Assembly (NCBI GenBank): GCA_018396975.1
Contig: JAGTQA010000017.1
Location: 1-39,307, forward strand
Reading direction: 5' to 3'
DNA length: 39,307 bases
DNA from: Candidatus Bathyarchaeota archaeon
Lineage (GTDB): Archaea; Thermoproteota; Bathyarchaeia; Bathyarchaeales; DTEX01
The translations under genes were made by a program, and so were the position numbers. Numbering within the stretch: position 1 is the stretch's first letter; every line of letters starts with the position of its first letter. Positions 3,966 through 39,307 of this stretch are shown here, piece by piece. The notes beneath the pieces were generated by a model. That model worked only from the letters and a program-made list of their open reading frames with translations, did no database searches and was not told the DNA's origin.

Positions 3966-4955
3966 CTAGCAGTTTACGATCCTTGCCACGGCATCCTTCC
4001 TTAGGGTGCCGAGACCGTAGCGTATTGTGCATATTACTCCTTGGCTCAGCCTCTCCTCATAGGGTTGTGTAAGTATGTCTCTTCTCAGGAGTAGGACGGC
4101 TGCCTTCCTAGTATCGATCAGATGGACCTTTGTCGGAGTGCATATATCGGTCTCAACAATCTTAAAGCCTAAGTATGTCTCACCGAGCAGACCGCGGCTC
4201 ACATCAACCCTATCGCCAAAGTAGAAGCTATTAATGAACTTCTCATCGTTCCATAAGTCTGCTATCTGATCTGGGTGGATCATGGCCACATTAGCCGTGT
4301 AACCAGCTTTCTTAACGGCGTTCCAAGCCCTAACTAGGTCGATCCATGATAGTGTTCCGGGCTTCTCAGCCTCTATCTCCGAGCCTCCAGCCAGCTCGTT
4401 TGGCGGTATGCTCTCATACAGGGCCACAACATCCTCTGTCAGCTTCTCCTCTAGGAGCTGGGCTGCCTCCTCAATGGCCCTCTCAATAACATTAAATGGA
4501 ACATCCTCCAGATATGCTTGGCTGAATAGTGCGTCATAGCCATATTCGCGGTCAACGTCTATATCCACTATATCGAAGTGCTCAGGTGTCTGGAGTGAGG
4601 GCCCCTCACTTATTCGCCAGACCGAGCCGCGCCTACTTAGGTAGAAGCGGACCCTAGGGCTTGTAACCCTCAGAACCCATATCAGCTCCCTGCCAACGGC
4701 CCTCCGCCTTGCAGCCTCAATAGCTATGTCATGAACCTTGCCCAGTGCCTGAGCGACATCGCTTAAGACATATTCCCTCATAACCCTCTGGTAGAGTGTG
4801 TTTCCGCTAGCCTTTCCGAGGAAGTTCTCTCTCCATGCATGCTCGCCTAGATCCGGATCCCTTAGGACTGCCTCCCTTAATGTGTTTGAGTATTCCGGCT
4901 GCGCCATACCCAATCTGACACCCCCTACGCGCCCATTCCATGAGTGTCTGGGCAT
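3966..4955 (-). CDS. HK97-fold-type major capsid protein (likely true start at 4907, MAQPEYSNTLREAV)
   Basis: Length and pattern of an HK97-like MCP: FDIVDIDVDREYGYDALFSQAYLEDVPFNVIERAIEEAAQLLEEKLTEDVVALYESI...VAMIHPDQIADLWNDEKFINS...GETYLGFKIVETD. Context of protease, decoration protein and portal. Confidence 0.8.
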   Translation of the reverse strand: MPRHSWNGRVGGVRLGMAQPEYSNTLREAVLRDPDLGEHAWRENFLGKASGNTLYQRVMREYVLSDVAQALGKVHDIAIEAARRRAVGRELIWVLRVTSPRVRFYLSRRGSVWRISEGPSLQTPEHFDIVDIDVDREYGYDALFSQAYLEDVPFNVIERAIEEAAQLLEEKLTEDVVALYESIPPNELAGGSEIEAEKPGTLSWIDLVRAWNAVKKAGYTANVAMIHPDQIADLWNDEKFINSFYFGDRVDVSRGLLGETYLGFKIVETDICTPTKVHLIDTRKAAVLLLRRDILTQPYEERLSQGVICTIRYGLGTLRKDAVARIVNC

Positions 4956-5377: not shown

Positions 5378-6169
5378 TCATGATGTTTTTGCGACCGCCA
5401 AGCCATTCTCTAGGAATCTAACTAATTCCCTAAGCCTCCGATTTTGCGGGCAGGATAGACACCTCCATCCGCCCGGGGCCTTCCCATAACATATCCCCTT
5501 CAATCTGCTAATCAGCTCGTTTAGGATAATTGAGTCTGGAACTGCCTCCCTCAGCGGTATCACAACCGCCCTTCCGGGGATTTTATTCCTCAGTTGTCTG
5601 AGTATACCCTCCCACACCTGCACTTTTGTTTTCGGATCGCCCGGTGGGAAATCCTTTAGGAGAGATAGCCCGGTGAATCTTATGCCCCTAGGCGCTAGAC
5701 CATTAACTCTCTCTAGGCTCCTCCAATCATACTCCACGCTGCAGTGTCTAATCACGCCGCTCCTAATCATGTTTAGGACCTCCTCATCATTTAGCTCGGC
5801 TATATACTTGATTCCTCCATCTTCATACCAAGCGTCCAAAACCCTCCCATTTAGGGGGCGAGTGTGATCTAGGAGGAGTGGGGCTCCCCTTAATGTTCTG
5901 GCGGCCCTCTGGAGCTCATCCTCCAAGTAGACTCGGACACTAGGCCACTCGCTCGGATGATACGTCTTTACTGGATGTATGGCCTCCCCGTAAATTATAT
6001 TTGTGTTTGGGCCGCGCGCGCCCACGGTGCCGTCGAAACTAAAATATTCCTCAGTCTCCCTCCGCTCTATGCGGTTTGTTGGAGCCCCACCAACCCTCCC
6101 ATCAGATTCCTCGCCTTTCCCTTGGGATGGCGTGTCCCGAACTAGGCTCTCAAAGGACATAGGCATCAA
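5378..6169 (-). CDS. Prohead/capsid maturation protease-like protein
   Basis: GAPLLLDHTRPLNGRVLDAWYEDGGIKYIAELND...IRSGVIRHCSVEYDW resembles the catalytic His/Ser region of HK97-type prohead proteases; directly upstream of the decoration protein and MCP. Confidence 0.75.
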   Translation of the reverse strand: MMPMSFESLVRDTPSQGKGEESDGRVGGAPTNRIERRETEEYFSFDGTVGARGPNTNIIYGEAIHPVKTYHPSEWPSVRVYLEDELQRAARTLRGAPLLLDHTRPLNGRVLDAWYEDGGIKYIAELNDEEVLNMIRSGVIRHCSVEYDWRSLERVNGLAPRGIRFTGLSLLKDFPPGDPKTKVQVWEGILRQLRNKIPGRAVVIPLREAVPDSIILNELISRLKGICYGKAPGGWRCLSCPQNRRLRELVRFLENGLAVAKTS

Positions 6170-7996: not shown

Positions 7997-9157
7997 ATGT
8001 TTGGTGGGGTCATTAGGCGTCTTCGGGAGATGGTTCTTAAGCCCAGCGGCAGCCTCCTACCAGCTCACCTATCAATCTTCGGCGAGCAGCCGCCCATAAG
8101 ATTCGAGGATTATATTGAGGCCTACCTAAAGGACCCCTCATGCAAGGCGTTTGTGGACTTCCTCGCTGATCAGGTGGTTGGCGTGGGCTTCTATACTACG
8201 GTTGACTATAGCTATCCTAAGGCTAGGGAGGCTAAGGAGATAGTTGACGACTTCTGTGAGTCCGTTAACCTCGATGGGTTACTCCACATCAGCGCTAGGG
8301 AGATAATTGCCGCCGGAAACAGCTTTTGGGAGAAGATAGAGCCTAATAATTTGGAGGACTTAAGAATTCTGCCGCTAACAAGTATAAGCCAGATAAAGCG
8401 GGATATTTACGGTAATATCAAGGAATATGTACAGTCTCCAGAGTACGGTGGTAAAACAATCCCACCCGACAGGATAATACATTTCAAGTGGAATCCAGTT
8501 AATGGAGAGCCTTTTGGAACTGGCATACTGCGCCCGCTCCTTGAGAGGATGAGGGTTGGAGGAGAGGTTAGAATGAGCTTCTTGGAGATGAAGGCGCGTA
8601 TAGAGAGGATGCTCCCGGAAATATTTGAGAGGTATGCTGGGCCGGATGAGCTCTGGATATTTGAGGGCGTAAGCGATGAGCAGCTCGCCGAGTACCAGAG
8701 GCTTATAAAGTCAAAGCCTAAGACTGGGGCGCGCTTTGTCTATAATCGGCCGGCCGATGTGAAGACGGTCCAGATAGACCCGCGAATCCAATTTAAGGCA
8801 TACCTAGAGCATATAATAAACCAAGTCTATTTGGGCGGGCAGACCCCTCTGCCGAAACTATTCACAACGCCGGGCTTCACCGAGGCCTCTGCTAGGGCTG
8901 CCCTAGAGATAGCGGAGCGGAAGATCATAGCATTACAGCGCTTTATTAAGCGGATAATTGAGAGGGAGGTTTTCAATCCATTAATAGAGCAGGCCGGCCT
9001 AGATGCTAGAAGGGCTAGTTGCAGACTGAACTGGGGTGTGCCGGAGAGGCCGAAAATAAATGTTCCAGACTTGATTAGGGCGGCTGAGCTAAAGCTGATA
9101 ACTGCTGAGGAGTTTAGGGATATGATGAGGGAGATGGGCTGGCAGCTTAGGGAGTAG
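7997..9157 (+). CDS. Phage-type portal protein
   Basis: CKAFVDFLADQVVGVGFYTTVD...REIIAAGNSFWEKIEPNN...LPLTSISQIKRDIYGNIKEYVQ...IPPDRIIHFKWNPVNGEPFGTGILRPLLE has strong portal-protein character. Confidence 0.88.
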   Translation: MFGGVIRRLREMVLKPSGSLLPAHLSIFGEQPPIRFEDYIEAYLKDPSCKAFVDFLADQVVGVGFYTTVDYSYPKAREAKEIVDDFCESVNLDGLLHISAREIIAAGNSFWEKIEPNNLEDLRILPLTSISQIKRDIYGNIKEYVQSPEYGGKTIPPDRIIHFKWNPVNGEPFGTGILRPLLERMRVGGEVRMSFLEMKARIERMLPEIFERYAGPDELWIFEGVSDEQLAEYQRLIKSKPKTGARFVYNRPADVKTVQIDPRIQFKAYLEHIINQVYLGGQTPLPKLFTTPGFTEASARAALEIAERKIIALQRFIKRIIEREVFNPLIEQAGLDARRASCRLNWGVPERPKINVPDLIRAAELKLITAEEFRDMMREMGWQLRE

Positions 9158-36466: not shown

Positions 36467-36814
36467 ATGGTTAGAGGCTTGTTAAGGGCTTTGGTATATG
36501 GCGTGTCTGCACTCCTGATATTTTTAGGCGCGGTTTTCATGATGTCATTTAATCTTGGATTAGCCTATCTTCTAGTTGGGGTTATACTTACGTCCGTGGC
36601 CATAATATTGCTCGCGCTAACTAGGGAGAGGAAACCCATAGAAATCAGGCAGACGATATCGGTCAGTGGGCCGATAAGGGTTAAGGAGGTGCGCTGCCCA
36701 GTCTGCGGTGCAAATATAGATGTTACTAAAGTTAGGGTTGCCGCTGGAAGACCGATAGTTACGTGCGGTTATTGTGGAAACAATTTTGAGCTGACAGAGG
36801 AGCCACTATGGTAA
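36467..36814 (+). CDS. Small membrane protein with two TM helices and C-terminal zinc ribbon
   Basis: Two hydrophobic stretches then RCPVCGANIDVTKVRVAAGRPIVTCGYCGNNFEL; stop codon overlaps the ATG of the next gene. Confidence 0.75.
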   Translation: MVRGLLRALVYGVSALLIFLGAVFMMSFNLGLAYLLVGVILTSVAIILLALTRERKPIEIRQTISVSGPIRVKEVRCPVCGANIDVTKVRVAAGRPIVTCGYCGNNFELTEEPLW

Positions 36815-38400
36815 TAGCCAGTAGGCGAATTATCCTTTCACTTACAATACTCGTTTTAGTTTTAGCTATAGGCGTTTATCCGGCCTATGCCCAAGTCAAA
36901 TATAGGGTTGATAGGGAGTGGGTTCAGATATGGATAAACAAGGAGGGCTCAATAGACATCTTCTACAACATAACCATAACATATATTTCGGGGGCTCCTA
37001 AGGGCATAATCACCCTAGGGATGCCAAAAGGGGGCTTCCAAATACATTATGTCCACGATATTGATGGCAGAAATCTCACCTACACAATAATCTCTTCTGG
37101 AGACTTTTACGGCTTAGATATAGAGCTTAGGGGCCCAATTCTATTGAACAAACCCTATATAGTGATTGTTTACGCGTCAGTCCCAGAGATGGTGTATGAG
37201 GATGAGATGAATCCGGGTAATGTTGGGCTGAAATTTTATCCATCAACATTCGATAATGCCGAGGGAAAAATAGGCAACATTAGAGTTGCAATAGTCCTAC
37301 CAGAGGGGGTTAAAGAGGATGAGGTGAAATATGCTGAAAGAAGGTTTAGTAATGTTTACAGGAATGAAGAGAATCTACTCGTAGTCTACTGGGAGGAGGA
37401 TGATTGGCCGCCGGCCAAAGAGTTTTGGGTTGGAGTTTCCTTTCCCAAAAAGTATGTTAGCATAGGCCCAGACATCTGGTTCTATATTCTGGTTGGCGGG
37501 TCGATCGCAGCCTTCATAGCCATGATAGGTGTAGTCATAGTTTTAGCCTTCAGGGAATCAAGGAAGGCTAAGTATGAGAAGCCCAGAATAGCTATTGAGG
37601 CACTAGGTCCAGCTCGGGGTCTTACGGCCGTTGAGGCAGCAGTCCTCTTAGACCTAAAGCCCATCAAGGTCTTAACAATGATTCTATTCAGCCTACTCCT
37701 TAAGCGTGCAGTTGAAATAATTTCCACCGAGCCTGTGATTAGGCTTAGGAGACTGCACTATGATAGCGCCGTTGAACCCAACCTAAGATACTATGAAATT
37801 GACTTTCTATGGGCGATAAGGTCTGATGGAAGCCTAGATGAGAGGGCGCTTGCAAAATTATACCTTGACCTAAGAGACACCGTAAACCTCAAGATTAAGG
37901 GTTTCTCAAGGATCGATACAATAAATTATTATAGGGATATTGTGGATAGGGCTTGGCAGCAGGTTACGCAGGCCGGCACACCGGAGCTTAAATGCGATGC
38001 CCTTGAAGAGAACATAGAGTGGCTTTTGGCTGACGAGAGGCTTGAGGAGAGGCTGCGAATAGCATTCCCACCCGACATAATAATTTATCCCAGACCCGAC
38101 TGGTGGTGGTATTGGGGTTGGCCGCGCGGTCAGCCTCCAATCCAGACTGGTGAGGTTAAGCCGATTCCCATACCCGGCCAGGAGTTCGCAAATAATATAG
38201 TCTTGGCGATCCAGAAGGCTGCAAACAATATAGTTTTAAATGTTCAGGAGTTCGCAAACCGTCTGGTTCCAGCGCAGAGGGCGCAAATTGCTCAGAGGCC
38301 ACTGAGATACCCTAGCTGTGTATGTGCCTGTGCCAGTTGCGCCTGCGCATGTGCATGTGTGAGTTGTGCATGTGCTTGCGCCCATGGAGGTGCCCGCTAA
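36808..38400 (+). CDS. DUF2207-like signal-anchored membrane protein with C-terminal ten-Cys CxC tail; candidate precursor of a radical-SAM-modified product
   Basis: Signal peptide, beta-rich ectodomain, TM (WFYILVGGSIAAFIAMIGVVIVLAF), cytosolic domain, then YPSCVCACASCACACACVSCACACAHGGAR* (codons checked by hand). Confidence 0.85.
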   Translation: MVIASRRIILSLTILVLVLAIGVYPAYAQVKYRVDREWVQIWINKEGSIDIFYNITITYISGAPKGIITLGMPKGGFQIHYVHDIDGRNLTYTIISSGDFYGLDIELRGPILLNKPYIVIVYASVPEMVYEDEMNPGNVGLKFYPSTFDNAEGKIGNIRVAIVLPEGVKEDEVKYAERRFSNVYRNEENLLVVYWEEDDWPPAKEFWVGVSFPKKYVSIGPDIWFYILVGGSIAAFIAMIGVVIVLAFRESRKAKYEKPRIAIEALGPARGLTAVEAAVLLDLKPIKVLTMILFSLLLKRAVEIISTEPVIRLRRLHYDSAVEPNLRYYEIDFLWAIRSDGSLDERALAKLYLDLRDTVNLKIKGFSRIDTINYYRDIVDRAWQQVTQAGTPELKCDALEENIEWLLADERLEERLRIAFPPDIIIYPRPDWWWYWGWPRGQPPIQTGEVKPIPIPGQEFANNIVLAIQKAANNIVLNVQEFANRLVPAQRAQIAQRPLRYPSCVCACASCACACACVSCACACAHGGAR

Positions 38401-38402
38401 TA

Positions 38403-39307
38403 ATGGTTAAGATAGGTCTTAGGAGGCTTTTTTCTGGGAGGATTAGGCTTCCACTGTATCATTTGAGGGTTTATGATAGCGTCCATAAGGGTTTAAGGCT
38501 TCATTTAAGGCTTGAGAGGGATGGGAGCGGTGTATTAATTGTTAATGCCTCAAGGGTTTTATTCCTCAATAAGACTGCAGCTGAGTATGTTGCCTCATTC
38601 ATTAGGGGAGACAGCGAAGATGAAACTGTGAGAAAAATGGTTAAGCGCTACGATATTGATGCTGAAACCGCACGCAAAGACTACCGTGAAATCCTCTACA
38701 TAATAAACACCTTTGTGAATACACCTGATGTCTGCCCAATCTCATATCTGGGCGTTGAGAAGATGGAGCCATTCCAGAAGGAGCTGAGCGCACCATATCG
38801 CATGGACCTGGCGATAACATATAGATGCAACAATAGATGCGTCCACTGCTATGCTGGTGGACCTAGGGAGACGAAGGAGCTTACGAAAAAAGAGTGGTTT
38901 AAGGTTATGGATAAAATCTTTAGTCTTGGAATTCCACATGTTGTCTTCACTGGTGGTGAACCAACATTAAGGGACGACCTGCCAGAATTGATAGCGTATG
39001 CCGAGAAAGTTGGGCTTATATGCGGGCTGGTTACTAATGGGCGTAGGCTTAAAGATAAAGCATACTTCCAATCCTTAGTTGACGCTGGCCTAGACCATAT
39101 TCAAATAACACTTGAATCCCATAATCCAGAAATCCATGATAGAATAACTGGTGTTGCTGGGAGCTGGCATGAGACCCTCGAAGGCTTAAAGAACGCCATT
39201 GAGTCACCAATATACACCATAACTAATACGACGCTTAACAAATACAATGTTAACGACATACTTGAGACTATAAAGTTTATACATGACTTGGGAATAAGGC
39301 AGTTCGC
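38403..39307 (+). CDS. Radical SAM peptide-modifying-type enzyme with PqqD/RRE-like N-terminal domain (truncated by the right edge; not in the ORF track)
   Basis: Manual translation from ATG 38403: MVKIGLRRLFSGRIRLPLYHLRVYDSVHKGLRLHLRLERDGSGVLIVNASRVLFLNKTAAEYVASFIRGDSEDETVRKMVKRYDIDAETARKDYREILYIINTF...APYRMDLAITYRCNNRCVHCYAGGPRETKELTKKEW...VVFTGGEPTLRDDLPELIAYAEKVGLICGLVTNGRRLKD... CxxxCxxC and GGEPT motifs. Confidence 0.93.
   Translation, partial: MVKIGLRRLFSGRIRLPLYHLRVYDSVHKGLRLHLRLERDGSGVLIVNASRVLFLNKTAAEYVASFIRGDSEDETVRKMVKRYDIDAETARKDYREILYIINTFVNTPDVCPISYLGVEKMEPFQKELSAPYRMDLAITYRCNNRCVHCYAGGPRETKELTKKEWFKVMDKIFSLGIPHVVFTGGEPTLRDDLPELIAYAEKVGLICGLVTNGRRLKDKAYFQSLVDAGLDHIQITLESHNPEIHDRITGVAGSWHETLEGLKNAIESPIYTITNTTLNKYNVNDILETIKFIHDLGIRQF

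Follow-up and report, generated by a model that had tools for sequence, protein, structure and literature searches.

Gene module at the contig end

The window analysed here comprises 39,307 nucleotides and corresponds to a whole contig (JAGTQA010000017.1) of a Candidatus Bathyarchaeota archaeon. Three adjacent genes on its forward strand form a module that runs up to the contig end. The first (36467–36814, +) encodes a small protein with transmembrane (TM) helices and a zinc ribbon, the latter matching the LysW type below the cut-off. Relatives of this conserved module gene lie upstream in 44 of 80 loci; they precede the tail gene in archaea as well as in bacteria and mostly overlap it by a few bases in Bathyarchaeota. 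At our locus, the last 7 nt of the TM/zinc-ribbon gene are also the first 7 of the tail gene. The tail gene itself (36808–38400, +), immediately upstream of the enzyme gene, encodes the candidate substrate, a single-pass membrane protein of 530 amino acids that has no Pfam or NCBIfam match of its own worth the name. The protein ends in a Cys/Ala tail, SCVCACASCACACACVSCACACAHGGAR (residues 503–530; 38314–38397, +), which is near-invariant in homologues and represents the proposed modification site. Apart from the tail, the CACACA coding pattern is not found anywhere in the source genome.

The third gene (38403–39307, +) encodes the first 301 residues of a radical SAM/SPASM maturase, as indicated by a Pfam Radical_SAM match (7.3e-31) and by full-length homologues. 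Its ATG at 38403 lies 2 nt past the stop codon of the tail gene (38398–38400), and the reading frame remains open into the contig end, leaving out the 3' part with the SPASM domain. We read the missing half of the enzyme from homologues at 92–97% identity; full-length homologues comprise ~440–475 amino acids and contain SPASM (PF13186). The CxxxCxxC motif of the radical SAM cluster, present as CNNRCVHC (38826–38849, +), provides C142, C146 and C149, which are invariant. The window copy ends before the SPASM domain, which in the homologues is complete, with seven cysteines (Pfam SPASM, 9.9e-11); these residues (C369, C387, C424, C427, C433, C437 and C448) are nearly invariant.

The AlphaFold model of the candidate substrate predicts a beta-sandwich ectodomain (residues 31–213), a TM helix (223–250; 37474–37557, +), a cytosolic domain (274–436) and a leader-like helical segment (457–486), followed by a disordered tail. 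The TM helix is supported by the model and by the distribution of lysine and arginine, which are commoner on its C-terminal side in 39 of 39 homologues (mean 4.4 vs 1.1). The tail is therefore predicted to be cytosolic and to share a compartment with the enzyme. In Foldseek comparisons, the ectodomain (36895–37450) resembles ribophorin I/OST1 and M1 aminopeptidase N-terminal domains, with E values of about 1e-10 to 1e-6.

Far from the module, the contig carries a virus-like region of three genes (3966–4955, −; 5378–6169, −; 7997–9157, +). PHROG matches point to a major head protein (E 1e-6) and a portal protein (E 2.5e-10), and the gene that separates them (5378–6169) is unidentified; this region suggests a provirus remnant in an archaeal contig.

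The PqqD/RRE-like domain of the enzyme

The N-terminal part of the enzyme contains a PqqD/RRE-like domain of four strands followed by three helices (residues 18–106; 38454–38720, +). By sequence, Pfam PqqD (PF05402) matches residues 50–98 (38550–38696) of the window protein with 23.8 bits for the 301-residue fragment, 24.9 bits for residues 1–109 and 25.2 bits when the whole genome was searched; the cut-off is 23.4 bits. A close full-length homologue, L052, remains below this cut-off at 21.3 bits. Given the small margin and the homologue under the cut-off, independent tests were needed. PqqD was matched at E <= 0.01 by 20 of 26 homologous N-termini on their own. When all PDB sequences were searched with a profile of the N-terminal region, the lasso-peptide RREs TfuB1 (6jx3, E 1.1e-4) and TbiB1 (5v1u, E 0.026) ranked first and third. 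On another contig (L144, contig 48, 23925–24104), the same genome encodes a stand-alone protein that matches the PqqD family more strongly (49.5 bits) and is conserved across most of the genus.

For structure prediction we used L052, which shares 95% identity with the window protein along the latter's length. The AlphaFold model has a mean pLDDT of 86.9 and a pTM of 0.87, with pLDDT values of ~83–95 over residues 31–100. DSSP assigned strands to residues 18–22, 32–37, 43–47 and 51–55, and helices to residues 57–68, 72–83 and 87–106, so that the first 106 residues of the model display the beta-sheet and three helices of the PqqD/RRE topology. A Foldseek search of the PDB with this model gave SkfB, SuiB with its precursor peptide, SuiB and CteB as top matches. 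Because the alignments extend over 395–472 columns for a 452-residue query, they span the N-terminal domain. All three clades retain the domain, with the domain order seen in SuiB, SkfB and CteB. Alignment of the N-terminal profile to a set of archaeal stand-alone PqqD proteins, itself divergent, was weak (hhalign probability 26); in RRE-Finder practice, a PqqD profile–profile match is expected to reach HHpred >=80%.

A sequence-only reading of the locus had placed a PqqD/RRE domain ahead of the radical SAM core (38403–38700), and Pfam, the PDB profile search, the AlphaFold topology and Foldseek agree on this assignment for the ~100 residues encoded by 38403–38730. The comparison to known structures that it had proposed as a check, carried out here with L052 and Foldseek, leads to RRE-bearing maturases and reveals the RRE fold. 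Nevertheless, an RRE-like domain alone does not prove a RiPP substrate, since the false positives named for RRE-Finder include radical SAM enzymes in non-RiPP contexts and also HTH proteins (PMC7470986).

The catalytic core points to the same group of enzymes. In the PDB profile search, its nearest solved structures are SkfB (1e-31), then PqqE and SuiB, and by sequence and fold together the closest solved structures are the peptide maturases SkfB, PqqE, SuiB and CteB. None of the NCBIfam equivalogs reached its cut-off with L052 as the query, the best being PqqE with 134.1 bits vs 381.35.

Pairing of the enzyme with a fixed Cys–Ala tail

Among 84,980 species genomes scanned, we found 390 enzyme relatives, and the best 80 of these 390 were examined. 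Their loci span Bathyarchaeota, Heimdallarchaeota, Thermoproteota, one Thermoplasmata archaeon, Chloroflexota, Coatesbacteria and several candidate phyla. A tail gene is found nearby, within the examined flank, in 70 of the best 80 loci and elsewhere in the genome for 7 more. The genome-wide search for the tail coding pattern covered the remaining 10 genomes and that of L063, a locus with a frame break inside the tail. The pattern was present in 8 of these 11 genomes, where the matched sequences form the C-terminal ends of members of the same protein family, and a reversed-pattern control gave zero. No tail match was found genome-wide for L110, L077 and L121. The first of these is a contig-edge locus; the other two look complete, and their tail may perhaps have been lost in binning or assembly.

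Co-occurrence was also evaluated in 300 genomes sampled separately from the phylum, in which the enzyme is present in 18 genomes and the tail pattern in at least 10, with zero matches for the control pattern. The value of 10 is a lower bound, because the pattern misses the CAHGG variant found in the window's own genus. Nine of the 10 tail-pattern genomes carry the enzyme, and in the tenth, G027, the enzyme gene is broken; in another genome, G057, an N gap that interrupts the gene is the sole reason for the missing enzyme match. With G027 counted as negative, Fisher's test gave p = 9.8e-12 (n = 300), an optimistic value since the sampled genomes are related. In G027 (L141, contig 55), the tail gene and the enzyme gene are each interrupted by frame changes, which may reflect joint decay or assembly error; we did not count this as evidence. 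Thus, the enzyme and the Cys-tailed protein co-occur almost without exception.

The RRE domain, the placement in the SPASM family, the pairing with the tail, the selection acting on the tail and the topology prediction were all computed here. Beyond them, we infer, and consider it probable, that an RRE-guided radical SAM/SPASM maturase modifies the cytosolic Cys–Ala tail of the neighbouring membrane protein; binding, chemistry and biological role remain inferences. In the proposed mechanism, the RRE (the first ~105 residues) would dock onto the amphipathic segment formed by residues 456–487 of the substrate, a contact for which binding is inferred, and docking would present the C-terminal tail, on the cytosolic side, to the radical SAM active site, where the CACACA repeat would be modified by 5'-deoxyadenosyl radical chemistry with the aid of two SPASM auxiliary clusters. 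The likeliest products of this inferred reaction would be thioethers of the sactionine or ranthionine type that link each Cys to a neighbouring residue, with Ala or Gly as acceptors. Among the neighbours of the enzyme loci, no recurring peptidase, exporter or transporter family was found. This makes release of a peptide unlikely, and the modified tail probably remains attached to the membrane protein, where it may form a rigid thioether- or thiolate-rich cap whose final role can only be inferred.

SPASM enzymes catalyse many reactions, and it is quite possible that the enzyme modifies the tail by epimerisation, C–C bond formation, Cys oxidation or desulfuration rather than by forming thioethers, perhaps with later methylation in bacteria and Heimdallarchaeota. 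In most Heimdall loci and in several of the bacterial ones, a class I methyltransferase gene indeed follows the enzyme gene by 15–118 nt (directly after the enzyme at L123:7287-8039, L112:7311-8087 and L115:7349-8098, for example), hinting at a second modification there. This gene is absent from most archaeal loci, however, and both the alternation of Cys with small acceptor residues and the kinship with SkfB and CteB favour thioethers.

The tail sequences bear on whether the tail is modified at all. The 44 archaeal tails are encoded by 43 distinct DNA sequences using all synonymous codons, yet ten Cys and six Ala residues are the same in 44 of 44. The 14 bacterial tails differ in DNA (14 sequences) and encode a single protein sequence, CACACACAGCACACAGGGR; in Heimdallarchaeota the tail reads CACACACACACAGGGR. 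Tail type tracks the enzyme tree, requiring 5 changes vs 29.9 expected by shuffle. Strong purifying selection thus acts on the tail. CxC repeats resemble metallothionein clusters, and together with the zinc-ribbon TM protein in the module they allow for an unmodified, metallothionein-like thiolate cluster that binds Cu, Zn or Fe-S, with the enzyme acting elsewhere in the pathway. We consider this unlikely. Metallothioneins have variable residues between their cysteines, whereas here six Ala are fixed in all archaeal tails and every position is fixed in the bacterial ones. The invariant Ala between the Cys argues that the whole repeat is read by an enzyme rather than serving as a metallothionein-like store of thiols, and the near-constant co-occurrence of enzyme and tail also speaks against a separate function. 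The proposal, made earlier from the sequence, that the substrate is ribosomal and leader-guided gains support from this co-occurrence and from the purifying selection on the tail.

How the tail would be recruited is less certain. Upstream of it, an amphipathic, leader-like segment, PGQEFANNIVLAIQKAANNIVLNVQEFANRLV (residues 456–487; 38173–38268, +), stands out as a conservation island, by its amphipathic moment and as a helix in the model. It is built from an 11-residue repeat (FANNIVLAIQK / AANNIVLNVQE / FANRLV) that covers residues 458–487 (38179–38268), and its amphipathicity exceeds chance, being matched in 9 of 5000 shuffles. Identity within archaea is 0.46 for residues 456–487, with flanks at 0.22 and 0.25, and between archaea and bacteria it is 0.32 vs 0.12 and 0.08 for the flanks. 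P456, A461, V476 and F482 are the most conserved positions. In Heimdallarchaeota, enzyme and tail are kept and the leader motif is absent (identity 0.12). That residues 456–487 are the leader bound by the RRE is plausible, but it is an inference only, without binding data. The suggestion of the sequence-only reading that the repeat before the Cys tail acts as the leader consequently stands in part: the segment is conserved in archaea and bacteria and is amphipathic, but it is missing in Heimdallarchaeota and is predicted to be helical inside the substrate's own model.

The lack of the leader motif in Heimdall substrates, along with the weak hhalign score and the radical SAM and HTH false positives of RRE-Finder (PMC7470986), leave room for the N-terminal domain to be a merely structural winged-helix/PqqD-like fold that binds no leader, the tail being recognised directly by the enzyme. 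We regard such a role as unlikely, given that the domain is present in all three clades in the order found in SuiB, SkfB and CteB, and that archaeal and bacterial substrates share a conserved segment at the position of a leader. Finally, it is hardly credible that the enzyme belongs to the haem pathway, as radical SAM/SPASM kin of AhbC, AhbD and NirJ, and stands beside the tail gene by chance: NirJ2, AhbC and AhbD are among the top partial NCBIfam matches, but the NirJ/Ahb scores lie hundreds of bits below the cut-offs, on which this identity was rejected, Foldseek ranks peptide maturases first, and the enzyme is linked to the tail in archaea and bacteria alike.

Relation to known systems

Like SkfB, CteB, SuiB and AlbA, the enzyme combines an N-terminal RRE with a radical SAM core and a SPASM domain, but it shares only 17–20% identity with these maturases and meets no equivalog cut-off. 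The criterion for a radical SAM/SPASM maturase of an adjacent, conserved, Cys-rich precursor is met. In contrast, the combination of a short precursor, a leader peptidase and an exporter that characterizes sactipeptide and ranthipeptide systems is not met at the enzyme loci, where the substrate is the tail of a ~530-residue membrane protein and no peptidase or exporter recurs. A further likeness is that to PqqE with PqqD, as PqqE is the second-best PDB profile match of the core and PqqD is the prototype RRE; in the PqqE system, PqqD forms a separate or a C-terminal part, and the PQQ cofactor is made. QhpD, a radical SAM enzyme that crosslinks a protein subunit, provides an example of radical SAM/SPASM thioether chemistry whose target is a protein and not a peptide natural product; its substrate is a periplasmic dehydrogenase subunit.

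The domain plan of the substrate, with signal, ectodomain, TM helix and cytosolic domain, resembles that of DUF2207 predicted membrane proteins (PF09972/PF20990). The DUF2207 domains were each matched weakly by 3 of 39 tail proteins, with a marginal best E of 8e-4; the window protein is unmatched, and the Cys tail is an addition to this plan. A closer parallel in arrangement is offered by the TIGR04222 (near_uncomplex) membrane proteins, whose Cys-containing tails have been placed in the periplasm and proposed as MNIO substrates (PMC12452194). Both systems feature a membrane protein with a low-complexity, Cys-containing C-terminal tail and an adjoining modifying enzyme. They differ in that the enzyme described here is a radical SAM protein and not an MNIO, that the tail is predicted to be cytosolic, and that Cys alternates with Ala instead of being embedded in a Ser/Gly-rich sequence. 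TIGR04222 was matched weakly by 3 of 39 tail proteins; L111 scored 33.9 bits against a cut-off of 43, and the tail protein of the window does not match it.

No curated family model in Pfam or NCBIfam covers the substrate or names the enzyme. We found no description of the enzyme–tail system in the literature, a search restricted to open-licence papers and therefore weak evidence of novelty. Modification of such a protein tail is thus apparently undescribed. On balance, we favour a cross-domain system in which an RRE-guided radical SAM/SPASM enzyme introduces several links, thioether or other, into the fixed cytosolic Cys–Ala tail of a permanently membrane-anchored protein, a stable modification that does not give rise to a released RiPP.

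The best-known products of RRE-containing radical SAM maturases are small secreted peptides. Finding the same RRE–radical SAM logic tied to one membrane-protein tail across archaea and bacteria suggests that it serves a cellular function, either old or widely exchanged, and does not make an antibiotic. Because the tail is so constant, the chemistry is directly testable. Alongside the modification of Cys-rich membrane-protein tails that has been proposed for MNIOs, the system would provide a route that uses radical SAM enzymes.
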